A stretch of DNA of 39,401 nt from IMG/VR virus record IMGVR_UViG_3300017763_000052, positions 1 through 39,401 of that record. One strand, written 5' to 3'. Below are positions 149 through 30,081 of this stretch, piece after piece (positions within the stretch are counted from its first letter, which is position 1; every line of letters begins with the position of its first letter). Position numbers and translations under genes: made by a program. The notes beneath the pieces are model-generated. The model had not been told where the DNA came from. It did not search any database and saw nothing but the letters and a program-made list of their open reading frames with translations. The stretch is from a virus.

Positions 149-1686
149 TGAGAGCAGTAGATTTTCAAAGTTGTCCTAAGACAAAAGCAAAAACTTGTGA
201 GTGCTCTAAGTTAGAGTCTATTACAGAGTCTGAAGAAACTATAAAAGCAATATGTCAATTAGAACATTCACCAGAAGATGTTACAGGATTTGTAAAGTTT
301 AAACAAACATTTGGTGAAGAAACAATAATCAAAGGAATAGTAAAAGGTTTAACTCCTGGATTACATGGTTTCCACATACATGAGTTTGGCGATCTAAGTG
401 ATGGTTGTGCTAGTGCCGGCGGACATTATAATCCAGAAGGTGTGGAACACGGTGGATTAGAACACGGACATGTAGGTGATTTAGGAAACATCAAAGCAGA
501 TGATCAAGGTATTGCAAGATTCCAATTCAAAGCACCGAGAGTACAATTACATGATATAGTAGGCAGAGCAATAGTAATACATGCTGATACAGATGATTTA
601 GGCCAAGGTGCTGACGAAGAAAGCACAAAAACAGGTAACGCAGGTGATAGAGTTGCTTGTGGTGTAATAAGATTAAAAGGTTCTATAGAAGAAGATTACA
701 ATAGAGCATTAAGTGATAAACATTTTAATAGAAATGAACTACCTCAAATAAGAAGAAAACATATTCAAGATTCTGATCTCAAATACAAAGAAGGTAAAAT
801 CAGTATAGATAAAATCAAACCAGTACAAAGCCAACGTGTAGATGGATTAAGTAAAAAAGCAGAAGACGTATTTTTAAAAAATGCAGACAGACCATTTATA
901 GTAGATAGGAAAGGCTATCTCATAAACGGACATCACAGATACGATGCCGCACATATATTAGGTATTAAAAGAGTACCAGCAATAATTATTGATGCTGATA
1001 TAGAAGATGTAATGAAAACTTTTGCACATACTACTAGCGATACAAAAACAATGGCTGAAAATTACTTCCACGATTTATTACGTTCTAAAATGGAAGAAGA
1101 ACTAGATGAAGATTGGAAAAATGTAGCCAGAGCAGGGTTGGCAACAGCCGCATTAGGAATGGGAGTAGCAGGAATGGATAGTGTTGCACCCGATGACTTT
1201 ACTCCAGACAAAGCAAAAGCAACTAAAAGTATGGACGTAAAACGCAATATCACAAAATTAGAAACATCATCTATAGAATATCAAAAATTATATAACAAAT
1301 ATGTAGAAAAATTTACTGATGAAGCTCAGGATAGGTTTGATAGAAATAGTATTACAAAGAAAGCAAAACTCTTTACAGATGTACATTGGACAAAAAAGTT
1401 TCCTTCACATGTAGACTTTAATGAATACTTAGTTAAAGCATATCCTGATAAAGAAAAAGCACAACAAGATTTTAATATAAAAAGCAGTATGCCAAACAAA
1501 GTAGGCGAAAACTTTGCCGACGGTAAAAAGAAAGGTAAGAGTAGACCAGGCCGAGTAAAAAAATCCGGTGCAAGTTGCAAAGGTTCAGTGAGTAGTCTCC
1601 GTGCAAAAGCCAAAAAGTACAGTGGTGAACGTGGTAAAATGTATCACTGGTGTGCCAACATGAAGGGCGGCAAGAAAAAATCCTAA
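148..1686 (+). CDS. Cu/Zn superoxide dismutase fused to ParB-like domain and basic tail
   Basis: A 512-aa multidomain protein. Residues about 30-175 form a complete Cu/Zn superoxide dismutase, which converts superoxide to peroxide and oxygen. The signature GFHIHEFGD is present, with metal ligands H76, H78, H93, H101, H108, D111 and H145, and the active-site Arg in GNAGDRVACGV. Residues about 215-290 resemble a ParB/sulfiredoxin-type nucleotide-binding domain (GYLINGHHRYDAAHILG). The last 60 residues are very basic with a GKMYHWCANMKGGKKK end, like small basic domains seen in marine phage structural proteins. No signal peptide is visible, so it acts in the cytoplasm or is carried in the particle. 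The start overlaps the preceding stop (TAATG). The SOD assignment is firm; the ParB-like call is moderate and the tail's role is unknown. Confidence 0.85.
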   Translation: MRAVDFQSCPKTKAKTCECSKLESITESEETIKAICQLEHSPEDVTGFVKFKQTFGEETIIKGIVKGLTPGLHGFHIHEFGDLSDGCASAGGHYNPEGVEHGGLEHGHVGDLGNIKADDQGIARFQFKAPRVQLHDIVGRAIVIHADTDDLGQGADEESTKTGNAGDRVACGVIRLKGSIEEDYNRALSDKHFNRNELPQIRRKHIQDSDLKYKEGKISIDKIKPVQSQRVDGLSKKAEDVFLKNADRPFIVDRKGYLINGHHRYDAAHILGIKRVPAIIIDADIEDVMKTFAHTTSDTKTMAENYFHDLLRSKMEEELDEDWKNVARAGLATAALGMGVAGMDSVAPDDFTPDKAKATKSMDVKRNITKLETSSIEYQKLYNKYVEKFTDEAQDRFDRNSITKKAKLFTDVHWTKKFPSHVDFNEYLVKAYPDKEKAQQDFNIKSSMPNKVGENFADGKKKGKSRPGRVKKSGASCKGSVSSLRAKAKKYSGERGKMYHWCANMKGGKKKS

Positions 1687-1693
1687 ATAAATA
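1686..1693 (+). promoter_or_regulatory. T4-type late promoter, leaderless
   Basis: AATAAATA octamer directly after the SOD-fusion stop. Only 6 nt separate it from the ATG at 1700. If spaced as in T4 (octamer about -13 to -6), transcription would start at 1699, one base before the start codon. Confidence 0.7.
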
Positions 1694-1699
1694 CTGCTA

Positions 1700-3013
1700 A
1701 TGCAGATTCTCGATATAAACAATCCTTTTGTTAGTTTTCTATCCAGTTGTGGAAAGAAAGATCTGTTGGAACATGTTCCTGCACATACTAAAGATAGTAT
1801 ATATGGCCAATGTACACATTTAGATATATACTGGAGAGAATTAGATAAAGCACACAAATCTTTAAAAACAATTATAGTAATAAGTTTAGACGGCATAGGT
1901 TCTAAAGAATTATTTAATTTGTGGAAAGACAACAAGTATAACTGTAAACCCATTATACCAGAATATATAAAAGAATTTACAGAACCTGTGATACTATTTG
2001 ATAATAGTTCTGAAGGGTTTAGTGATGAATATATGTTTAGTTTTATATCTCAGGTTGTGAACCATTACAATTTAAATTCTGAAAATACTTATTATTGTAA
2101 TAGCAGTATAAACATACAGGATATACAACAACAATTAGGATATACTAACTTCCAATCATTTTATGCAAATAATTTTATGGAAGACAGTATGACAGCATTG
2201 CACGAAGCAATTGAGTATGACTTTAAAGATGGCGATCAACTAGTAGACATAGACACAGACCTACACAGACCGTTTGTGTTCAGTTGTTTAAATAACGCAC
2301 CCAAACATCACAGAACACTTTTACTAGGCTGTATGAGCAAATTAGACCTATTACAAGACGGTTATGTAAGTAGTTCTGATATAGAGTACAATACACTTTA
2401 TAGTGAAACAATTAGGCAACTATCTCAAGATTTAACAAACGCAATAATAGATAAAGAAGACTTTGAAATAGCAATTGACTGGTTAAATAGGCTACAACCA
2501 CACTATCCTATAGTTGCAGATAAAAGAACACAAGACAGTATACATATGAAAGAGTTTGGTGATGATAGTTTTATACAAAATATGCTTAGTTGTGATGTAC
2601 AAGTTATTACAGAAACGTTTTCTAATAATAATTTATTTGTTTCTGAGAAAGTATTCAAGCCTATAGTTATGTGTCAACCATTTATTATACTAGGCAGTAA
2701 TAAAACATATAAGCATTTACAACAATTAGGCTATAATACTTTTGATTATTTAATAGATACTCACAAACTAGACACCACAATGAATAATATTAGTAAAATT
2801 ATTATGGTGTGTGATGCAATACAGCAATTAAAAGAAATTAAATCCAACCCAATAGAGTGGAAAAACTTGCAAGACAAGATTTCTATAGATGTTATTCATA
2901 ATTATAATCTATTTGTTAGCAATTTAAGTACCATTAAAAATAATTCCGCTCTAGGTTTACATGAGTTTCTTGGAATTAGGCCCGGTTATAAGTTACCATT
3001 ACAGAACAAATAA
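1700..3013 (+). CDS. Glycosyltransferase-like protein (GT-B type C-terminus)
   Basis: A 437-aa protein of a family I know only loosely. The C-terminal half has the pattern CLNNAPKHHR, then VITETF, then SEKVFKPIVMCQPFIILG followed by LQQLGYNTFDYLID. An acidic EK pair plus a 'PFIxxG' strand is typical of the nucleotide-sugar-binding half of fucosyltransferase/exostosin-like GT-B enzymes. The minus-strand gene at 36010-37266 shares all these blocks in the same order, so the two are paralogues. The likely role is transfer of a sugar to a phage or host surface structure, by inference. It is expressed from its own late promoter, with no Shine-Dalgarno before the ATG. Confidence 0.6.
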   Translation: MQILDINNPFVSFLSSCGKKDLLEHVPAHTKDSIYGQCTHLDIYWRELDKAHKSLKTIIVISLDGIGSKELFNLWKDNKYNCKPIIPEYIKEFTEPVILFDNSSEGFSDEYMFSFISQVVNHYNLNSENTYYCNSSINIQDIQQQLGYTNFQSFYANNFMEDSMTALHEAIEYDFKDGDQLVDIDTDLHRPFVFSCLNNAPKHHRTLLLGCMSKLDLLQDGYVSSSDIEYNTLYSETIRQLSQDLTNAIIDKEDFEIAIDWLNRLQPHYPIVADKRTQDSIHMKEFGDDSFIQNMLSCDVQVITETFSNNNLFVSEKVFKPIVMCQPFIILGSNKTYKHLQQLGYNTFDYLIDTHKLDTTMNNISKIIMVCDAIQQLKEIKSNPIEWKNLQDKISIDVIHNYNLFVSNLSTIKNNSALGLHEFLGIRPGYKLPLQNK

Positions 3014-5213: not shown

Positions 5214-5558
5214 ATGAAAATATCTGAAGTATTGCTATTTGAAGCATACTTTGATGATCTTAAAGTAGCAGTACTTGATAGATTAGCACAGTTTGTAGGC
5301 TCAGACAAAAACGAAATATCCACAGAAGAATTTAGAGATGCTCTAGCAAGTGACGGTTTTCTAATGAGTGCCGAAGAACTAGTTAAGGCTTTAGATCAAA
5401 TGGACGTAGTACAAAGTGCAACAATTGATACTATTACACCTAAAGGCAAAATACCAAATGATATGGTTGACCCAGAACAAGAATTAGACCAAGTTGATGT
5501 TGGTGCTATGGCTGGCGACCAGGCTATGTCTGCCGTTAAAGACAACCTCCCACAATAA
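5214..5558 (+). CDS. Probable small virion protein ending MSAVKDNLPQ
   Basis: A 114-aa acidic protein one base after the upstream gene, so co-transcribed and probably translationally coupled. The start MKISEVLLFEAYF contains LFE-A, a fit to the T4 prohead protease site (L/I-x-E). Residues 30-60 look like a small helical EF-hand or winged-helix-like unit, but I cannot name a family. Its last 10 codons, stop and following late promoter recur as an identical 47-bp copy at the end of the next gene. The name is inferred from late expression and context. Confidence 0.65.
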   Translation: MKISEVLLFEAYFDDLKVAVLDRLAQFVGSDKNEISTEEFRDALASDGFLMSAEELVKALDQMDVVQSATIDTITPKGKIPNDMVDPEQELDQVDVGAMAGDQAMSAVKDNLPQ

Positions 5559-5572
5559 CTAACAAATAAATA
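5526..5572 (+). repeat. 47-bp direct repeat, copy 1
   Basis: This run is identical to 6785-6831. It encodes the end of the upstream protein (MSAVKDNLPQ, stop) and continues through the late promoter octamer AATAAATA. With one synonymous Ala difference (GCT versus GCC) the match extends to 50 bp (5523-5572). It lies in the same reading phase in both copies. Confidence 0.95.
5565..5572 (+). promoter_or_regulatory. T4-type late promoter, leaderless (repeat copy 1)
   Basis: AATAAATA at the end of the direct repeat, 6 nt before the ATG at 5579. There is no ribosome site between it and the start. Confidence 0.75.
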
Positions 5573-5578
5573 TTGTTC

Positions 5579-6817
5579 ATGACTTTTAAAATACCCAAGG
5601 AAATGCCTTGCAATTTTTGTATTGCACCGTTTATATCCACAAGGCCGGACGTAAGACATCAGAACAGTCCTTGTGCCTATGGTGCTTTAGATATTAAACA
5701 ACCACAACTAAATGCCAAAAAGAAATGGCATAGTGAAGAACTAAACAATCTCAGACAACAATTTATAAACAACGAACAGCCAGATGCCTGCAACAGGTGT
5801 TGGTTTGAAGAAGAGGCTGGCAAAAGCAGTTTAAGACAACGTTTATTACAGTATCAACCTAATGCATATCAAGATTTAATTATCACTGGTAGGTGGTACG
5901 ATGGTCCTTTATCTATTACATTCAAGTCCAGTAATGTTTGTAACCTAGCATGTAGAAGTTGCGGTGCTCATGACAGTAATCAGTTTGATAAAGAAGGTGC
6001 TACATATCTAAAAGAATACAACAATAGAGGACAATACATAGCAAATCACAAACCAGAGCATGTCAATATGATAGACTATATAACTATTTGCGACAATTTA
6101 CGACATTTAGAATTCTTTGGTGGTGAACCTTTATTAAACATTACACAATTTGAACTACTAGAACATTTAGTTGAATCAGGCAGAAGTAAAGATATAACAT
6201 TGTATTACAACACCAACGCAACTAACACACCCACAGAACGTTTACAACGAGCATGGAAAGAATTTAAAAGTATAGAAATAAGTTGTAGCATTGATGGTAT
6301 CAAAGATAAATTTGAATATTTAAGATATCCAGGTAAGTGGAGTACACTAGAATCAACTTTAGATAATTTACAAAATATGAACTTAGGTATTCCTACAAGG
6401 ATAGTAGGCAACATGACTACAAGTATTACTAATGTATGCGACACAACAGAAATTTATGAATGGCAAAAAGAAAGGTTTGGTGAGTATCCGTACAACTCCA
6501 TGGTTGACATGCCATCTTATATGAGCATAAAGAATATACCAGATGAATACAAAAATCAAATCAGTTCACATCTAAGTATGTCTGAGGTCAGAGATTACTT
6601 GAATATAGATATACAATATCCAAATGCATTCAGAGAATGGATTAAATGGATGAAAAGAATGGACAAGTATAGGGAACAAAACTTTATAACCACATTCCCT
6701 AAACTATATAATATAATCAAAAAAGATTGGGATTCAGTTATTGACTTAGCAGATCCTAGACCAGACTTTGATATATTTGGTGCCATGTCTGCCGTTAAAG
6801 ACAACCTCCCACAATAA
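5579..6817 (+). CDS. Radical SAM protein with auxiliary Cys cluster (twitch/SPASM-like)
   Basis: A 412-aa radical SAM enzyme. CNLACRSC at residues 121-128 gives the CxxxCxxC that binds the catalytic 4Fe-4S cluster, and FFGGEPLLN is the SAM-contacting GGE motif. Further cysteines lie at C11/C14 (CNFC), C32 and C71/C74 (CNRC), suggesting a second iron-sulfur cluster as in twitch/SPASM peptide-modifying enzymes; the substrate is unknown. I chose the ATG at 5579; a TTG six bases earlier overlaps the promoter spacing. The protein ends MSAVKDNLPQ, exactly like the upstream gene, because of the direct repeat. It looks like an inserted cargo gene with its own late promoter. Confidence 0.85.
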   Translation: MTFKIPKEMPCNFCIAPFISTRPDVRHQNSPCAYGALDIKQPQLNAKKKWHSEELNNLRQQFINNEQPDACNRCWFEEEAGKSSLRQRLLQYQPNAYQDLIITGRWYDGPLSITFKSSNVCNLACRSCGAHDSNQFDKEGATYLKEYNNRGQYIANHKPEHVNMIDYITICDNLRHLEFFGGEPLLNITQFELLEHLVESGRSKDITLYYNTNATNTPTERLQRAWKEFKSIEISCSIDGIKDKFEYLRYPGKWSTLESTLDNLQNMNLGIPTRIVGNMTTSITNVCDTTEIYEWQKERFGEYPYNSMVDMPSYMSIKNIPDEYKNQISSHLSMSEVRDYLNIDIQYPNAFREWIKWMKRMDKYREQNFITTFPKLYNIIKKDWDSVIDLADPRPDFDIFGAMSAVKDNLPQ

Positions 6818-6831
6818 CTAACAAATAAATA
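6785..6831 (+). repeat. 47-bp direct repeat, copy 2
   Basis: Second copy of 5526-5572, 1259 bp downstream. It encodes the last 10 residues of the radical SAM protein, its stop codon and the late promoter for the SGNH gene. The two copies exactly bracket the radical SAM gene. Confidence 0.95.
6824..6831 (+). promoter_or_regulatory. T4-type late promoter, leaderless (repeat copy 2)
   Basis: AATAAATA, 5 nt before the ATG at 6837. The predicted transcript start equals the first base of the start codon. Confidence 0.75.
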
Positions 6832-6836
6832 CAAGC

Positions 6837-7949
6837 ATGGATGATAGATTACTTCGTGCGGCTCAGCATATTGACAAAGAATACTTTGAACAATTTAATG
6901 TAAGTTACCCAGAAATGGCACTTAAATTTAATAAGGCTATTACTAGAGGTGGCGATCCTGATAATTACAAAGACGAAGACTTGTTAGAAACTACACTACA
7001 GATGCGTAGAGAACAAAAAAACGAGTATACAGTACAAGCAGAAAAGTTACCAACCGAAGTTCCTTATTTAAGTTTAGATGTTGCAAATGAGCAAATAGAA
7101 GATTTAAAAATGTCACTAAGTAGCCCAGCATTTACTAAAGACTTTGATGAGAATATACTTGATCCTATAACCAAACGTTTGTATAAACGTGTACAAGAAC
7201 AAACATACAAGTATAAAGAATTACTTAACGTCGATAAACAAGGCTGGTATGATCAATTTCCTAAATTTACATACAGATTAAACAAACAAGGAAGTCGTAA
7301 TAATTTTGATTTTGAAGATCTAACAGAAAATGAATTCATACCTGTGTTTGGCGATAGCAATACTGTTGGTATGGGTTTGCCCGTTAGTGAACTTTGGCAC
7401 AGTAAATTAAATGAAGAATTGCCAATCTACAATGCTGGTGCTATATGTGGAAATTTAATGGATGCATATATGCTATTAGTGTCTATGTATAAAACTAAAA
7501 AGTTTAAAAAAACATATATTTGCATTCCGCATTCAGATAGATTCTCAGCAGTTTCGGATAACGGCATCATCGAAGGCTTAACTCCAGCAAAACATTGGTT
7601 TCTAAAGCAGTTTGAACATTCAGACATTGTTTTAAATAACAATACAAGACAGATGTATAGATGGGTAGCATTACAAGGCATTATAAATTTTTGTTTATTA
7701 AACAACATTGAAGTACGTTTATTTGATAAAAATACTTTTGCTACTGTTACTTGGTGTACAGAAAATGAATTATATGTTCCTAACTGGATGTTTGTATTTA
7801 AAAATATGATCAAAGGCGTTAAATTAGTAAATGAATGCAATGCTGATATAACACAATGGCCTAAACATGTTGCTAGAGACCATCAACACTTTGGTACATT
7901 ATGGCACGATAAAATAGCAGAATATATGTTGACAACTAAAGCAATATAG
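6837..7949 (+). CDS. SGNH/GDSL-type hydrolase-like protein
   Basis: A 370-aa protein. The C-terminal 210 residues have SGNH hydrolase blocks: FGDSNTVGMG at 171-180 supplies the block I serine (S174), NAGAICGN a block II glycine, and ARDHQHFG near the end the block V Asp-x-x-His pair. Such enzymes hydrolyse esters, for example acyl or acetyl groups on lipids and polysaccharides. The N-terminal 160 residues are charged, helical and unrecognised, and may attach it to a particle. No signal peptide. It is expressed from the repeat-borne late promoter. A possible role is sugar or O-antigen deacetylation during adsorption, or lipid ester cleavage; neither can be shown here. Confidence 0.7.
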   Translation: MDDRLLRAAQHIDKEYFEQFNVSYPEMALKFNKAITRGGDPDNYKDEDLLETTLQMRREQKNEYTVQAEKLPTEVPYLSLDVANEQIEDLKMSLSSPAFTKDFDENILDPITKRLYKRVQEQTYKYKELLNVDKQGWYDQFPKFTYRLNKQGSRNNFDFEDLTENEFIPVFGDSNTVGMGLPVSELWHSKLNEELPIYNAGAICGNLMDAYMLLVSMYKTKKFKKTYICIPHSDRFSAVSDNGIIEGLTPAKHWFLKQFEHSDIVLNNNTRQMYRWVALQGIINFCLLNNIEVRLFDKNTFATVTWCTENELYVPNWMFVFKNMIKGVKLVNECNADITQWPKHVARDHQHFGTLWHDKIAEYMLTTKAI

Positions 7950-7957
7950 TATATAAT
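7929..7957 (+). promoter_or_regulatory. Perfect sigma-70 consensus promoter
   Basis: TTGACA at 7929-7934, a 17-bp spacer, then TATAAT at 7952-7957. It overlaps the end of the SGNH gene. Transcription would begin about 7964, just ahead of a GAGG ribosome site at 7965-7968 and the ATG at 7977. This suggests early expression of the exonuclease by unmodified host RNA polymerase. Confidence 0.85.
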
Positions 7958-7976
7958 ATACATTGAGGACAAATAC

Positions 7977-8651
7977 ATGTTAGTAGAAAAGTTTGAATAC
8001 CCAACACTAAAAAGGGTTACAGCCAAAAATGGTCAAAGACAATATACTGGTGATGATGATCAACCAGTGCCAAGTGTAACCACTGTATTAGGTGATACCG
8101 GTGATAAAACAGCACTAATGAATTGGCGTAAACGTGTAGGCGATGCTGAAGCAAACCGTATAAGCAGAGAAGCCGCAGGCCTAGGTACTAAAGTACACAA
8201 TGCATTAGAAAAATATGTGCTACAAGAAGAGTATGAAATTTCAGGTAGTAACCATATCAGTATAATGGCTAAATCAATGTTAGAAGAAATGATAGCAAAA
8301 GGTTTAAGCCAAGTAGATGAAGTATGGGGTGTTGAAGTAGCCTTAATTGCAAAAGGCTTATACGCAGGTACAAGCGATGCAGTGGGTATGTTTAACGGTG
8401 TTGAAAGTATTATTGACTTCAAGACTGCTAAAAAGATCAAGAAGCGTGAGTGGATTGAAGATTACTTTATGCAAGGTTGTGCATACGCATTAGCACACAA
8501 TGAAATGTTTGGCACAAAAATTAAACAAGTTGCTATCTTAATGGTAGACAGAGAAGGCAAGTATGCAGACTTTGTTATCGAAGGTGACGAGTTTGAAGAA
8601 TATTGTGGGAAATGGGCAGACCGTCTAGCTCAGTACTACAATAAGATATGA
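7977..8651 (+). CDS. PD-(D/E)XK exonuclease (Cas4/RecB-like nuclease)
   Basis: A 224-aa protein with the core of the PD-(D/E)XK nucleases. H74 lies in a GTKVHNALEKY helix, D134 in YAGTSDAVG, and the D147-x-K149 pair in SIIDFKTAKK; a following helix contains the conserved Gln-Tyr type motif (YFMQGCAYALAH). This arrangement matches RecB/Cas4-like exonucleases annotated in many T4-like marine phages. The likely role is host DNA degradation or phage DNA recombination in the cytoplasm. It has a perfect host-type promoter and good ribosome site, unlike its late neighbours, so it is probably expressed early. The next gene overlaps by ATGA. Confidence 0.85.
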   Translation: MLVEKFEYPTLKRVTAKNGQRQYTGDDDQPVPSVTTVLGDTGDKTALMNWRKRVGDAEANRISREAAGLGTKVHNALEKYVLQEEYEISGSNHISIMAKSMLEEMIAKGLSQVDEVWGVEVALIAKGLYAGTSDAVGMFNGVESIIDFKTAKKIKKREWIEDYFMQGCAYALAHNEMFGTKIKQVAILMVDREGKYADFVIEGDEFEEYCGKWADRLAQYYNKI

Positions 8652-9664
8652 TTTCAAAAGAAATACATTTAAAATATAAACTATCTCAACATGTATCGGA
8701 ATACGATTTTAACATTGTTGATGTAGAATTGCCTGAAATAGAATTAGGTGAATTTTTAGTTAAAAATTTATATTGTAGCACTGATCCTTTTATGCGATCA
8801 AATATGTCGTTTGAAGGTGGGTTCTTTAGAATGGAGCCTAATGCTCCTCTGTATGGAGAGTCTATTGGCATAGTTGAAGAAAGTAAATGCAGTGATTATC
8901 CAGTAGGAACTTATGTATGGCATAATAAAGGCTGGAGAGAATATGGTATATGTAAAGATACTACAGCAATACTTAAAGTTCAACCAGACTTAGATAGTTT
9001 AGATGAATCACTTATACGTTTTGCAACAGCATTTAGTCTAGTTGGTAGGACATCATACTACAGTATGACTAATGTATGTAATATTCAACAAGGAGATGTG
9101 TTAGGAATAGATGGAGCAACTGGAGGTGTAGGACATCTAGCAGTACAGATAGCAATATCTAAAGGTGCAAAAGTTTATGGTATTACTAGTACTGATGAAA
9201 AAGTATCAAAAATAAACGAACTTGGTGGTATTGGTATTAAAGTTTTACCTAATTGGCCACTGCAAAAAAAATTAAAAGCATACAATGATATAGGTGAAAA
9301 ATTTGATTATTACCATGCTAATGTTGGTAATGATTATACATTAGCAGGATTACAAAATCTAGCATACGGCGGAACTCTTGTATTATGTGGAGCAATGAAA
9401 CATTACAATGATGCTACTCATGGTCCTGGTCCAAATCTAGGTGCGGTGATCTACAATGATGCAACAATACGTGGTTGTAATTTTTCAGCAAAAAACACTA
9501 CCTTTGGTAATGAATGGAATCAAGAACTACAAAGTTTCTTTAATAAAACCAAAATTAAATGTTTAAGTACACTAACACATGGTTTAGAAAGTATGCCGGC
9601 ACAATTTGTAGGCCATTTTAACGGATTTAAAGACAGTATTGGCAAAAGGCTATGTAAGATATAA
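8648..9664 (+). CDS. Zinc-free MDR-family NAD(P)H reductase
   Basis: A 338-aa medium-chain dehydrogenase/reductase. The N-terminal GroES-like part has YCSTDPFMRSNM, typical of the leukotriene B4/prostaglandin reductase and CurA subgroup. The Rossmann part has GDVLGIDGATGGVGHLAVQIA at about 150-170, the cofactor-binding glycine motif. The cysteine and histidine zinc ligands of alcohol dehydrogenases are absent, so it should reduce activated double bonds (enones) with NADPH. The start overlaps the nuclease stop (ATGA), so it may share the early promoter at 7929. Its substrate is unknown, perhaps a lipid or quinone-type enone. It is an unusual gene for a phage. Confidence 0.85.
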   Translation: MISKEIHLKYKLSQHVSEYDFNIVDVELPEIELGEFLVKNLYCSTDPFMRSNMSFEGGFFRMEPNAPLYGESIGIVEESKCSDYPVGTYVWHNKGWREYGICKDTTAILKVQPDLDSLDESLIRFATAFSLVGRTSYYSMTNVCNIQQGDVLGIDGATGGVGHLAVQIAISKGAKVYGITSTDEKVSKINELGGIGIKVLPNWPLQKKLKAYNDIGEKFDYYHANVGNDYTLAGLQNLAYGGTLVLCGAMKHYNDATHGPGPNLGAVIYNDATIRGCNFSAKNTTFGNEWNQELQSFFNKTKIKCLSTLTHGLESMPAQFVGHFNGFKDSIGKRLCKI

Positions 9665-17666: not shown

Positions 17667-18619
17667 GAGGAGTAACGTTTAGCGAATTTGGAGGAGGCAA
17701 GCCAGTTGATATGTTTGTACACGCACCAAAAACTATTCCTGGTACTCCTATGCAAGAAGCAATAAGAACTGCAAAATCAATTAGAGAAAAGTACACTAAA
17801 GATTTATATGTATGGTGTGATTATAGTGTGCAACACATGTATTCTCAAATAGCCATGCAGGCATTTAAAATGGCAGGCATAGAATTTAAAGCGGCTATAC
17901 CTTTACTTAGTAATGATTTAAGTAAAAGAGAAAACGATTGTACTATTGCATATTGTGAGAAACATAATATAACATATGAATTATTTTATATAGATGTGCC
18001 TGAATTATTTAATGGACCAGACCTTGAATACTATGGTGAAAAGTTTCCTACAACACAACCACAAATGACTATTGCTGGTAAGTTTTTTGATATGTTACCA
18101 GATTGCTGTATTGTGTATCCTGGTTTTATGATGCACGTGAGTACAAGTGATTGGACTAGAAGTAAAAATAATGGCTTTATGCCTTTTGTACCTCATGAAA
18201 CACAAGAACATGCCGCAACAGTATTTGGTAAAGAGTATACTAATTTCCAAGAACATTACGTAGATATGTACAGCAGTTGGATGTTTACACAAAGTTATGG
18301 AGAAGTATTAAAATCAGCAACGCAAGAATTTGTAGATAATGCCCCACATAGATATTATCAATATGAAATGCGTACTATAAAACAAGCAGGGTTTGATATA
18401 AAACCCACAACACAAAAACTAATTGGCATTGAAATGCTCAAAAGTTTTTTCGGTCATGATAAATACGATATAGCATTCAGACAAAGATTAGCACCATTTT
18501 CTCCTTTGACTCTGAAGTATGCGAGTCTACAGTACACAGTTAAAGTAGACACTAAACTTAAAGAGATGTTAGAACATTATCATGAAGAGACTTTTGAATT
18601 CATTGACAAACTTTTTTAA
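17663..18619 (+). CDS. PP-loop/adenine nucleotide alpha-hydrolase-like protein, degenerate
   Basis: A 318-aa protein. Residues about 45-115 follow the layout of N-type ATP pyrophosphatases seen in phages: a strand (DLYVWCDYSVQHMYSQIAMQAFKMAGIEFKA, quoted here by position 46-76 with key residues W51, C52, D53), then AIPLLSNDLSKRENDCTIAYCE and NITYELFYIDVPELF. In active relatives the first strand carries SGGxDS; here it is CDYSVQ, so ATP hydrolysis is doubtful. The C-terminal part is unrecognised. Upstream it couples through ATGA, and the desaturase starts 38 bases before its stop. A ribosome site (AGAGGTG) precedes it. Confidence 0.45.
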   Translation: MRGVTFSEFGGGKPVDMFVHAPKTIPGTPMQEAIRTAKSIREKYTKDLYVWCDYSVQHMYSQIAMQAFKMAGIEFKAAIPLLSNDLSKRENDCTIAYCEKHNITYELFYIDVPELFNGPDLEYYGEKFPTTQPQMTIAGKFFDMLPDCCIVYPGFMMHVSTSDWTRSKNNGFMPFVPHETQEHAATVFGKEYTNFQEHYVDMYSSWMFTQSYGEVLKSATQEFVDNAPHRYYQYEMRTIKQAGFDIKPTTQKLIGIEMLKSFFGHDKYDIAFRQRLAPFSPLTLKYASLQYTVKVDTKLKEMLEHYHEETFEFIDKLF

Positions 18620-19409
18620 AAACAAAGCAAAAGCCAATTTCTGGCTATACACATTACCAGTACATTTCTTAGGCCTAGTAGGATTAGGTGCCATGGCTTA
18701 TTTTGGAGACTGGAATTATCTACTACATACGTTCGTCTTTTATTTCCTTTTTGGCTGTATTGGAATGGCTGTTGGCTTACATAGATACTGGGGTCATGCC
18801 GCATTTGAAATGCCTAAATGGAAAGAACGTTTTGTAACACTTATGGGTGTATTCAATGGCTATGGAAGTATTTTTCCATGGGTTATGGTACACGAAAAAG
18901 GACATCATGTCCACAGCGATACTGAGGAAGATCCACATACACCAAACAAAGGAATGTGGTATGCTTTTTTAACATGGCACAAAGAACAAAAATATTTTGA
19001 TCAACACGTTAGTAGAAGAGTGTTAGTAAACTATGTGAGAAGAGGTTTTGTAAACGATAAGTTTTATCAAATACTAAACGATTATCATATGGCAATAAAC
19101 TATGGTACACTTATACTGATAGCACTACTGTTCGGTTGGAAAGTAGCACTATACGGTTTTTGGATGGGCATATGGTTTACACTTTTAAATACTAGTACTG
19201 TAACAGCATTCAGTCACAAGAAATGGTTTGGTTACAGAAATTTTGAAACAAAAGACAATAGTGTAAACAATAGAGTTGGAGCAATACTAACTTTTGGTGA
19301 AATGTTACATAACAATCATCATAGGTATTGGAAAGCAACAAACAATAGTCAACACTGGAGTGAAATAGATATAAGTGGTTTAGTAATTGAACGACTGAGA
19401 AAAAGATGA
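18582..19409 (+). CDS. Acyl-lipid/acyl-CoA delta-9-type fatty acid desaturase (first of two)
   Basis: A 275-aa integral membrane diiron desaturase. The three histidine boxes are complete: HRYWGH at 67-72, HEKGHHVH at 104-111 and HNNHH near 248. Hydrophobic segments flank them (about 20-60 and 165-205), as in stearoyl-CoA/DesC desaturases. It inserts a double bond into fatty acyl chains in the inner membrane using oxygen and an electron donor. Its length is near the bacterial minimum. The start lies within the end of the previous gene, and its stop overlaps the next start (ATGA). Late expression suggests that the host membrane is remodelled before lysis or for virion contact. Confidence 0.92.
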   Translation: MKRLLNSLTNFFKNKAKANFWLYTLPVHFLGLVGLGAMAYFGDWNYLLHTFVFYFLFGCIGMAVGLHRYWGHAAFEMPKWKERFVTLMGVFNGYGSIFPWVMVHEKGHHVHSDTEEDPHTPNKGMWYAFLTWHKEQKYFDQHVSRRVLVNYVRRGFVNDKFYQILNDYHMAINYGTLILIALLFGWKVALYGFWMGIWFTLLNTSTVTAFSHKKWFGYRNFETKDNSVNNRVGAILTFGEMLHNNHHRYWKATNNSQHWSEIDISGLVIERLRKR

Positions 19410-20173
19410 TATTTTACTTACTGTTTATACCCATTACAATACTAAGTTTTATCTGGAGCCTTATCTATGGCTCTACAGAACTTTGGTTAGCAACATTATT
19501 CTTTACAACATTATATAGTGGGTATGGAATTGTAGTTGGATACCATAGATTACATAGTCATAAAAGTTTTAAAACTTGGGAACCTATGAGAAAGTTTTTA
19601 TTATATTTAGGTTGTCAAGGAGCACAAGGCTCGCCAGTAACATGGAGCCTAATACACAACAGAAGTCATCACGCACATACAGATACAGATAAAGATGTGC
19701 ATACTCCTACAAAAGGATTATGGTATGCATTTGCAGGATGGATTTTTCATAAAGAAAATCATAGATTTGCACAACAAGAAATTTTTAAAGTAAAAAAGAT
19801 TTTAGATCCTTATTCAATTTGGTGTCATAGAAATTATTACTTTTTAGTAATTTTAAATTTAGTAATTATAGGTTTAATAACTATATGGTGGCATGACGGA
19901 AGATATTTACTTGCAAGTTTAAATGCAAGTTATTTAAGTTTAGTTATTAGTGGAATAGTAAACGTATTTGGACATACACCTATTAAAGGTTTGACGTATG
20001 CAACTACTCCAATGAAAAATAACAGTACAAACAATCCTTGGTTAGCATTATTTACATGGGGTGAAAGTTTACATAACAATCATCATGCTAAACCTAGAAG
20101 ACTAAACTTTAATACTAAATGGTACGAATTGGATGTAGGAAGATGGTTGATCTCAACAGTAAAAAAATCTTAA
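19406..20173 (+). CDS. Fatty acid desaturase (second of two)
   Basis: A 255-aa membrane desaturase, paralogous to the preceding gene but clearly diverged. Its histidine boxes are HRLHSH at 47-52, HNRSHHAH at 84-91 and HNNHH near 229. Hydrophobic spans occur at about 2-20, 27-45, 130-150 and 155-170. The two desaturases probably act on different acyl positions or carriers, although the sequence cannot show which. Both have all metal ligands and no frameshift, so both appear functional. It is coupled to the first by ATGA. Confidence 0.92.
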   Translation: MIFYLLFIPITILSFIWSLIYGSTELWLATLFFTTLYSGYGIVVGYHRLHSHKSFKTWEPMRKFLLYLGCQGAQGSPVTWSLIHNRSHHAHTDTDKDVHTPTKGLWYAFAGWIFHKENHRFAQQEIFKVKKILDPYSIWCHRNYYFLVILNLVIIGLITIWWHDGRYLLASLNASYLSLVISGIVNVFGHTPIKGLTYATTPMKNNSTNNPWLALFTWGESLHNNHHAKPRRLNFNTKWYELDVGRWLISTVKKS

Positions 20174-22493: not shown

Positions 22494-23516
22494 ATGAGCA
22501 GACTCATTTCAGTAAAAGGTCCACATACAACAGACCCAGATAGAGCAGTACACATACAATGGAGCATGGGTAATACATGTAACTATGAATGTGAATACTG
22601 TCCTACAACTCTACATAATGGTTCTAAGCCTTGGTTATCTACGGAATTGTATTTAGAAACTATACATAAAATATGTAAATATTATCGAGACAAAGGTAGA
22701 CATTTACATTTTGAACTTATAGGTGGAGAGGTAACAACAATACCAGGGTTTGAGATTATACTTAAAACTATTGCGGAATACGGTGCTAGTGCTGTAGTTT
22801 ACACTAATGGTAGTAGAACTGTACGTTGGTGGGAAGAGGCAAGAGAATACCTACAAGGTGTAGTGATAACATATCATCCACTTACAATGGACGAAGAGCA
22901 TTTATTTGAAGTTGTTAAAACATTAAAAGGCTATTGTACTATAGATTTAAACATTGCAGGTATAGGTGGTCAAGTTATAGAACTAGGTGAAGTAGTAGAT
23001 AGATTAAGAGAATTATTCAAAGACAATGCACAACAAAGTATATATGATGTAAACATTACAGTTAAAACAATGTATCAAAAGTACTTAGGTAACAACAACG
23101 AACAACAAGCACCATATTATTCTTACACTGATGAAGAATTAGAAATATTACAACGTCCAGGCGTAATACCCAGACCTCCGGAGCCACAACCGGAACAATC
23201 AAATGAACCAGATGAGACTGGGCATGAACGTTTTTGGGCAACAGAATTTTTATATGAAGATGGTAGTGTAAAGTATGTACAAAGTCATCAAATTATAAAC
23301 GAAGGATTGAACTCTTTTAAAGGTATGAAATGCGAATTAGGTTATGATGGAATCAATATTGATATGAATGGAGAAATAATTAGTAGTTGGTGTGGTGCAA
23401 AAAGTTTTGGAAATATCACACAATTAGATTCTTGGCAGTTGCCAGACACTGAAACTGTTTGTCCTCATGAGTTTTGTAATAACCTAAATGACATCAGTAT
23501 AACCAAAACATTGTAA
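22494..23516 (+). CDS. Radical SAM protein with C-terminal Cys motifs
   Basis: A 340-aa radical SAM enzyme. CNYECEYC at 29-36 is the CxxxCxxC cluster motif and LIGGEVTT is a GGE-type motif. Near the C-terminus MKCELG, SSWCGAKSFGN and CPHEFCNN give four to five cysteines arranged like a SPASM/twitch auxiliary cluster, which suggests modification of a peptide or protein. It has a hydrophilic Pro/Glu-rich insert around 220-240. It is not closely similar to the radical SAM gene at 5579. It is alone behind its own leaderless late promoter. Confidence 0.85.
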   Translation: MSRLISVKGPHTTDPDRAVHIQWSMGNTCNYECEYCPTTLHNGSKPWLSTELYLETIHKICKYYRDKGRHLHFELIGGEVTTIPGFEIILKTIAEYGASAVVYTNGSRTVRWWEEAREYLQGVVITYHPLTMDEEHLFEVVKTLKGYCTIDLNIAGIGGQVIELGEVVDRLRELFKDNAQQSIYDVNITVKTMYQKYLGNNNEQQAPYYSYTDEELEILQRPGVIPRPPEPQPEQSNEPDETGHERFWATEFLYEDGSVKYVQSHQIINEGLNSFKGMKCELGYDGINIDMNGEIISSWCGAKSFGNITQLDSWQLPDTETVCPHEFCNNLNDISITKTL

Positions 23517-24539: not shown

Positions 24540-25265
24540 ATGAGCTTACCATACTATTTTGAAGTACCAGAACTTAAATTACCTTTTGACGTTTTACAGT
24601 ATGTAGACGATGAAAAAGTAATGAAAGCAGACGACAGAGTAGACGATGGTAATCACAGTTATGTTGATAAATTAAAACGTCAAGAAGCAACCTCAATGGA
24701 TGCTGGTTGGTATATGAGAGCATTTGGTAATACTGGAGGCACAGGACAAGGTGGCTACGGTGAAACACTTAGTGACGCAACTGGTATGTCAGAAGAACAA
24801 CATCCAGATATGAGTAAGATTGTCAGAGAATGGGCAAATGACTTACTTAATATCAGAATGACAAGTTGTATGTTATTAAGAACATTACCAGGCAAAGACG
24901 GTTATTGGCATTGTGAAGGCCCACAGTTACGCAGTAGAAGATGTGCATTAAACTTTTTAGTTGAAGGCAATATAGGAAAAACTTCTGCACAATGGGGATA
25001 TAATAAGAGTTGGGGTAACCTTCCGCCCGAACAAGTAGAACTTCAAGGATATGTAAAAAAAGAAGATGCAGATAATATAGAAGTACTCGACGAGTACGAA
25101 TCACCTGAATTAAACACAGGATTTTTTTATAACACAATGTACTTACACAGAGGTACTAACTCAAATTCAGATGTACGAAGAAGTATATTAAGTATTTCAG
25201 TTGCGGAAAGTGTTGATATACAAGGAGTTTATAAACTATACCAAGCAGGAAAATTATTTAAATGA
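24540..25265 (+). CDS. Beta-helix dioxygenase-like protein (first of a tandem pair)
   Basis: A 241-aa protein. YWHCEGPQLRSRRCALNF and MYLHRGTNSNSDVRRSILSISV match the order H-x-D/E ... R ... LNF ... H ... R-x-x-LS found in Fe(II)/2-oxoglutarate and aspartyl-hydroxylase-like double-stranded beta-helix enzymes. Candidate metal ligands are H124, E126 and the distal His near 210. It begins MSLPYYFEVPELKLPFDV, an opening shared with the next gene. Likely a paralogous pair. Whether it is a true oxygenase is unproven, since HxE is less common than HxD. It overlaps the next gene by ATGA. Confidence 0.6.
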   Translation: MSLPYYFEVPELKLPFDVLQYVDDEKVMKADDRVDDGNHSYVDKLKRQEATSMDAGWYMRAFGNTGGTGQGGYGETLSDATGMSEEQHPDMSKIVREWANDLLNIRMTSCMLLRTLPGKDGYWHCEGPQLRSRRCALNFLVEGNIGKTSAQWGYNKSWGNLPPEQVELQGYVKKEDADNIEVLDEYESPELNTGFFYNTMYLHRGTNSNSDVRRSILSISVAESVDIQGVYKLYQAGKLFK

Positions 25266-25975
25266 GTCCAAGAGATTTTTTACCCTACTATTTTGAAGTG
25301 CCAGAGATGCCACTCATACCTTTTGATGTAACAAAATACTTTACTACAGAATTGCAACGTGAAATAGCAATGCAAGATAACAAAAATCCAGAAGATTTAA
25401 TGGATGGTGAATCAAGAAGCCAGAGTGCTAATTGGTATCAAAGTTATATTAAGGTAGAAGAAAATAGTCCTATGAACAAGAGGGACTTTAAAGAAGTCAA
25501 TTTGTTCGAAGATGTAAATTTTGAATTATCAAAACTAATGAAAGAATGGTTACATGATACATTAAATTTAAAATTTACAAGTATACTTATGTTACGAACA
25601 CCTGCAAATTGTAATAGCAGATGGCATTGTGAAGGCCCAGTATTTCATACCAGGCAATGTGCATTAAATTTTCCAGTATACGGTGATGCATCAGTTATGG
25701 AAGGTCAATGGGCAACGTTCCCAAGGTTTAAAGATGTAGATCCACGTGACAATGAAAAGCACGGATTTGTTACTAAAGATGATATGAAAGAAACAAACAT
25801 ACTTTGTCGTTGGGATAAACCAACAGTTCCTGCATTTTATAACACTATGATTTTCCACAGAGGTTATAACGAGTTAAGCAATAGGGATAGAGTTGTTTTG
25901 TCCTGTGCTGTGGAAGATTACTCCGATATAAATGTTTGTCACCGTAAATACAATAAAGGCAAATTATTCAAATAA
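25262..25975 (+). CDS. Beta-helix dioxygenase-like protein (second of a tandem pair)
   Basis: A 237-aa paralogue of the upstream gene. Shared blocks: LPYYFEVPEMPL at the start, WHCEGPVFHTRQCALNFPV (H122, E124), FYNTMIFHRGYNEL with the distal His, a similar last strand and a final KGKLFK matching AGKLFK. Sequence between the blocks has diverged, so the duplication is old or the two act on different substrates. Substrate unknown. Confidence 0.6.
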   Translation: MSPRDFLPYYFEVPEMPLIPFDVTKYFTTELQREIAMQDNKNPEDLMDGESRSQSANWYQSYIKVEENSPMNKRDFKEVNLFEDVNFELSKLMKEWLHDTLNLKFTSILMLRTPANCNSRWHCEGPVFHTRQCALNFPVYGDASVMEGQWATFPRFKDVDPRDNEKHGFVTKDDMKETNILCRWDKPTVPAFYNTMIFHRGYNELSNRDRVVLSCAVEDYSDINVCHRKYNKGKLFK

Positions 25976-29995: not shown

Positions 29996-30072
29996 GGGCC
30001 CTTAGCTCAGATGGTTAGAGCATCCGACTCATAATCGGCAGGTCGTAGGTTCAAATCCTACAGGGCCCACCA
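29996..30072 (+). tRNA. tRNA with CAT anticodon, probably Ile2
   Basis: 77 nt with encoded CCA. Acceptor GGGCCCT/AGGGCCC; anticodon loop CTCATAA gives CAT. The acceptor, D-arm start (TTAGCTCAG) and CGACTCATAATCG stem look more like bacterial tRNA-Ile2, which needs lysidine modification to read ATA, than elongator Met. Confidence 0.9.
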
Positions 30073-30081
30073 AATTCAAAT

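Follow-up and report, generated by a model that had tools for sequence, protein, structure and literature searches.

In the 39,401 nt of viral DNA analysed here (IMG/VR record IMGVR_UViG_3300017763_000052, hereafter the window), a radical SAM gene lies between two copies of one short block, which carries the end of the gene upstream, a stop codon and a promoter-like octamer. The arrangement raises two questions: how the gene came to occupy this position, and whether the block serves as a homology arm through which phages swap cargo genes. We compared the locus with itself, with related viral loci and with homologues of the enzyme.

The duplicated block and the genes around it

Comparison of the window with itself identified a direct repeat identical at 49 of 50 positions (5523-5572 and 6782-6831), with an exact core of 47/47 bp (5526-5572 and 6785-6831). 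The chance expectation for a 47 bp exact repeat in a sequence of this length is ~4e-18. Each copy comprises 10 C-terminal codons (MSAVKDNLPQ), a stop codon and the octamer AATAAATA. The identical 47 bp pair, its content and its in-frame recurrence in the radical SAM gene are thus as originally predicted, and the duplicated gene-end/promoter block is confirmed as an observation. The features of the locus are as follows.

5214-5558, + strand: g5214, the upstream gene, 114 aa; its C-terminal codons are duplicated
5523-5572, + strand: repeat copy 1, the final 10-11 codons of g5214, stop TAA and octamer AATAAATA; exact core 5526-5572 (codons 5526-5555, MSAVKDNLPQ; TAA 5556-5558; octamer 5565-5572; radical SAM ATG at 5579)
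5565-5572, + strand: octamer ahead of the radical SAM gene, 14 nt to the ATG; late-promoter-like by sequence and position only
Left junction, repeat into cargo: AATAAATATTGTTCATGACTTTTAAAATACC
5573-6781, + strand: novel segment, missing at the empty site of relatives
5579-6817, + strand: radical SAM protein, N-terminal twitch type (NF033640), 412 aa; its last 10 residues are repeat copy 2
Right junction, cargo into repeat: GATATATTTGGTGCCATGTCTGCC
6782-6831, + strand: repeat copy 2, the radical SAM C-terminal tail and stop, and the octamer for g6837; core 6785-6831 (codons 6785-6814, in frame with the radical SAM ORF; TAA 6815-6817; octamer 6824-6831; ATG at 6837)
6824-6831, + strand: octamer ahead of g6837, 13 nt to the ATG; late-promoter-like
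6837-7949, + strand: g6837, the downstream gene, 370 aa; SGNH/GDSL-like from the motif FGDSN, and adjoining g5214 at empty sites

Spacing is given from the first base of the octamer to the first base of the ATG. The most likely start of the cargo gene is the ATG at 5579, in preference to the TTG (5573) given by the ORF list. The upstream protein had been described as virion-like. The 114 aa product of g5214 gave no family match, and the neighbouring gene at 3935-5212 matches a 'virion structural protein' family, so the description fits the neighbour and extends to g5214 through gene neighbourhood alone.

Every locus in the window and 36 kin loci (423 kb) was searched against itself for direct repeats (30 bp or longer, 88% identity or higher), and the window repeat was the sole example. 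On this result we abandoned the notion that cargo sites commonly carry such repeats. The exact 47-mer had no match among the viral contigs searched.

The empty site and the direction of change

An empty site, in which g5214 is followed by a single copy of the block and then by g6837, is present in five relatives, with DNA identities between 92-93% and about 67%. L001 and L002, recovered by searching with g5214, follow the window collinearly and match it at 89-94% (about 92% over its length), and L003, L196 and L197 show about 67-69% DNA identity in this region; L196 and L197 came from a scan of viral contigs for the encoded tail. L002 is collinear with the window throughout, with three large differences, one of which consists of the radical SAM segment together with a single copy of the repeat. 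No radical SAM gene was found at the site or elsewhere in the five records, which are fragments. The flanks outside the repeat are native, as GCTATGTCTGCC on the g5214 side and AATAAATACAAGCATGGA on the g6837 side match the distant L197; the two flanks facing the cargo are new. As had been proposed, the radical SAM gene is an insertion; the search suggested at the time, for genomes with one copy of the block and no such gene, returned these five relatives, and the contrary case of relatives that all carry the gene without repeats did not occur.

Given the empty sites and the lack of a radical SAM gene in the relatives, a single gain in the window lineage requires less than repeated losses, and is the simplest history. 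The block in L001 differs from both window copies at 6 of 47 sites, and the window copies are mutually identical. If the duplication had predated the split between the window and L001, the identity of the copies would have a probability of about 0.01-0.03, a rough estimate that gene conversion could undercut by mimicking youth; the duplication is probably younger than that split. It is conceivable that the common ancestor carried the cargo and that the relatives lost it by recombination between the repeats, as a perfect 47 bp repeat would make precise loss easy. However, the five empty records include the outgroups L003, L196 and L197, and the repeat probably postdates the window/L001 split; recent gain is simpler on both counts, and we consider ancestral presence improbable.

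The filled site is known from one assembled metagenomic contig, with no second contig, and two strain variants might have been fused through shared sequence during assembly. Against this, the 50 bp repeat is shorter than an ordinary read, the cargo ORF is complete, with a start spacing of 14 and a stop codon, the remainder of the window is collinear with L002, and the empty site in relatives is accompanied in the window by intact, properly spaced signals. An assembly artefact is accordingly very improbable.

The cargo protein passes the curated cut-off of the twitch-domain radical SAM family NF033640 (267 bits against 170) and also matches Pfam Radical_SAM, and it scores far below the cut-offs of the families of its characterized relatives (peptide-modifying and other radical SAM enzymes). 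Full-length homologues occur in other phage records, at 54% in L106 and L107 and 41-47% in the others. These homologues finish at about ...DWDSITDLSEDNFH, where the repeat of the window begins, and do not carry MSAVKDNLPQ. Their lack of the tail indicates that the filled state is derived, and that the insert is almost exactly one gene whose final few residues and stop were replaced by the repeat. The earlier suggestion that the cargo acquired the end of its neighbour is borne out by the same comparison.

The homologues emerged by alignment, the protein search of viral contigs having returned no close radical SAM relatives. Annotated phage DNA gave no match, and bacterial genomes gave two distant homologues only (24%), so these searches yielded no recent cellular donor. 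The homologue-bearing phage records showed no exonuclease gene like that of the window; these are fragments, which makes the evidence weak. A foreign base composition was considered for the cargo and dropped, as its GC (0.338) and GC3 (0.274) are not distinctive.

We also considered whether the 10 duplicated residues might have been selected as a peptide tag, targeting the enzyme to a partner of g5214 or to the virion. The C-terminus is the most conserved part of the g5214 family, where the motif DVGxMAGDQA (..L) does not vary among the first 12 relatives, and the repeat preserves the reading frame. However, the invariant motif lies almost entirely outside the repeat, the homologues manage without the tail, and one join in three would be in frame by chance. 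A functional tail is the least probable of the explanations considered.

Several other features of the window were noted. A 402 bp in-frame segment of ORF 148-1686 (1104-1505), missing from L001 and L002, stops where a conserved C-terminal module begins. L002 has an extra block of ~2 kb, with small genes and a tRNA-Pro, after a tRNA-Met (window 30041-30075; L097 reverse complement 6770-9000), and the tRNA T-arms there have GGTCGTAGGTTCAAATCCTAC in common, which probably marks where the block was gained or lost. Two adjacent pairs of similar genes resemble tandem duplicates, one desaturase-like (18582-20173) and one encoding 241 and 237 aa proteins (24540-25975).

The octamer and the proposed formation of the duplication

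The octamer AATAAATA is close to the T4-type late promoter TATAAATA and lies at a fixed 13-14 nt before the ATG. Of the 42 [ACT]ATAAATA motifs that have an ORF start no more than 60 nt away, 28 stood 13-14 nt ahead of the ATG, and permuted motifs did so far less often. Octamers occur in the window at 1686, 5565, 6824, 16510, 22480 and other positions, in the kin loci, and in pelagiphage HTVC008M (L199), where six of nine are spaced at 13; the spacing measured in the same way in T4 is 22-43 nt. A second, unrelated-looking radical SAM gene in the window (22494-23516) also lies immediately behind an octamer. Shine-Dalgarno-like matches were found at none of the eight octamer genes checked in the window, versus 12/26 other genes.

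In T4, the late element is about one helical turn upstream of the transcription start site (PMC2988020). That distance, combined with a spacing of 13-14 nt, would place transcription starts at or beside the ATG, and leads us to predict leaderless late mRNAs in these marine phages. The octamer could alternatively be a translation signal. A gp55 sigma factor was not found in the records of close relatives, which are incomplete. The term late promoter, used in the original prediction, is apt for the resemblance to T4 in sequence and position, and we retain it as a putative assignment.

We consider it likely that the locus arose by insertion of a single gene through two junctions sharing 50 bp of recipient sequence, so that the gene-end/promoter block was duplicated. 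The incoming DNA, a twitch-type radical SAM gene belonging to a different phage lineage, would have been joined into the g5214/g6837 junction. On the left, recipient DNA would continue to 5572, through the g5214 end, stop and octamer, and give way to foreign DNA just ahead of the cargo start. On the right, near the natural C-terminus of the cargo (6781/6782), the foreign DNA would rejoin the recipient 50 bp upstream, in frame, within the final g5214 codons. The outcome would be the cargo plus a duplicated block of 10 codons, stop and octamer, with copy 1 ending g5214 and starting the cargo, and copy 2 ending the cargo and starting g6837. Joining may have taken place through short homology or by template switching during recombination-dependent replication. 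The cargo would presumably be expressed late, and the perfect 47 bp repeat would permit its precise excision by recombination.

Each gene retains its own promoter-like octamer at the correct spacing (14 and 13 nt), in line with the original prediction. The position of the left junction at the end of the octamer, with the promoter-start spacing kept, points to the octamer, though not conclusively, as the short homology used there; in L106 and L107, an octamer before the radical SAM gene was looked for and is absent. It should be noted that an intact g5214, together with promoters for both the cargo and g6837, requires a duplicated or imported promoter, so selection alone could favour the observed product. 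We dropped the possibility that the copy 2 duplication once reached further upstream (FDIFGAM resembling VDVGAM), because the sequence left of copy 2 showed no homology (shuffle P=0.46).

The junction as a candidate exchange point

In L197 and L196, the g5214/g6837 junction has kept its sequence much more closely than the DNA on either side. Against L197, identity reaches 95% in a 60 bp comparison window versus a regional mean of 67%, and the non-coding spacer CTAACAAATAAATACAAGCATGGA is identical. L001, much closer to the window than L197, has a different spacer. This pattern may reflect either strong sequence constraint or exchange between lineages, and since the L001 spacer is unlike those of both the window and L197, the site has undergone at least one further change.

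In ~30 kin loci, a cargo site lies between g5214 and an exonuclease gene, occupied by a 106 aa gene and 0, 1 or 2 GDSL/SGNH-like genes. At a second cargo site (window 1506-1700, g148/g1700), the last ~58 residues of g148, the stop and the octamer are conserved (window; L003:1805-2560, L010, L011 and L013), homology stops at the octamer and different genes follow in relatives; in L003, this site holds a methyltransferase with an octamer-like element on either side. Counted across kin, HSP ends coincided with 13 of 48 octamer starts compared with 28 of the 284 remaining starts (Fisher P=0.003), a significance that is overstated, the count being mostly orthologous copies of one site.

These observations bear on a different route, in which a donor genome or circle carrying the cargo and the block recombined within the shared 50 bp block, either as a boundary sequence or in a Campbell-like manner. 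Such homologous integration is consistent with the strong conservation of the block and the identical spacer in distant kin, and with the frequent ending of kin homology at octamer starts, and similar reasoning has been applied to the mycobacteriophages Island3 and Brujita (see below). However, no genome with the cargo and the block elsewhere was found, the encoded-tail scan of viral contigs having returned only empty-site copies of g5214, and the identity of the two copies over 47 bp is better explained by copying within one genome than by a diverged donor block. We regard homologous integration as possible but unlikely.

The original prediction went further, proposing the junction as a homology arm through which phages could swap cargo. 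Recurrent use of this kind was not supported by the loci compared, as no different cargo was found between two copies of this repeat, and the other cargo sites of kin lack a long repeat. In a weaker form, the junction block as homology arm for a cargo swap is possible: the conserved junction in L197 and L196 and the turnover at the g148/g1700 octamer speak for it, but the block could equally be the by-product of one insertion. More broadly, we offer as a tentative and rather doubtful suggestion that late-promoter junctions (gene end, stop and octamer) are recurrent exchange points in these marine phages. Cargo would then move as a unit of ORF and octamer, the junction providing homology, in a late-gene counterpart of the promoter/stem-loop cassettes discussed below, and the radical SAM case would be a fresh example that retains its duplicated arm.

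The closest known case is that of Island3, in which genes 67 and 68 share about 50-60 bp at their 3' ends (the last 18 residues), and Brujita, which has one copy and lacks gene 68; insertion or deletion between the repeats was proposed (PMC3029335, Pope et al. 2011, section 13). Both systems have one additional gene whose terminal stretch repeats the 3' end of the gene before it, and near relatives, here the five with an empty site, carry a single copy and lack the additional gene. The present case differs in that the block also holds a promoter-like octamer, outgroups favour insertion, the cargo is a recognizable enzyme with tail-less homologues, and the mycobacterial phages are siphoviruses. 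The architecture has thus been published before, in nearly exact form, and the present locus, ordinary in kind, stands out for its clarity and offers a modest prospect of revealing a general mechanism of exchange.

PeSLs (Arbiol 2010; Comeau 2014), as outlined in PMC4503421, are cassettes of T4-type phages with an early promoter and a stem-loop terminator, and resemble the present block in that an intergenic regulatory sequence is proposed as homology for modular shuffling. Unlike that description, the window has a late-type octamer with an upstream coding end, and one event only. No notable stem-loop terminator was found in the block (fold z-scores of -0.48 and -0.52 in two contexts; a third context gave -2.6, dependent on cargo bases 5573-5580), and many copies in shuffling regions, as for PeSLs, were not seen, with one long repeat in 423 kb. 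Given the lack of a stem-loop, PeSLs serve as an analogy only. Morons, to which a promoter and a terminator of their own are attributed (PMC3029335), are similar as single extra genes, with an expression signal, between genes adjacent in relatives, but here the promoter-like octamer was copied from the recipient and no terminator was seen in the block. Boundary and start-associated sequences are likewise short conserved sequences at gene borders (PMC3029335, PMC3203893); the start-associated sequences of cluster K, however, are 13 bp repeats taken as translation signals, with a role in recombination not demonstrated.

The locus represents a well-resolved snapshot of a lytic phage gaining one gene while its neighbours remain unbroken, in which duplication supplies the newcomer with a stop codon and a promoter and the old ones are kept. 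The outgroups and tail-less homologues allow the direction of gain to be argued, which the Island3/Brujita precedent did not. If late-promoter junctions were general exchange points, the cargo sites of marine phages would be predictable from sequence.
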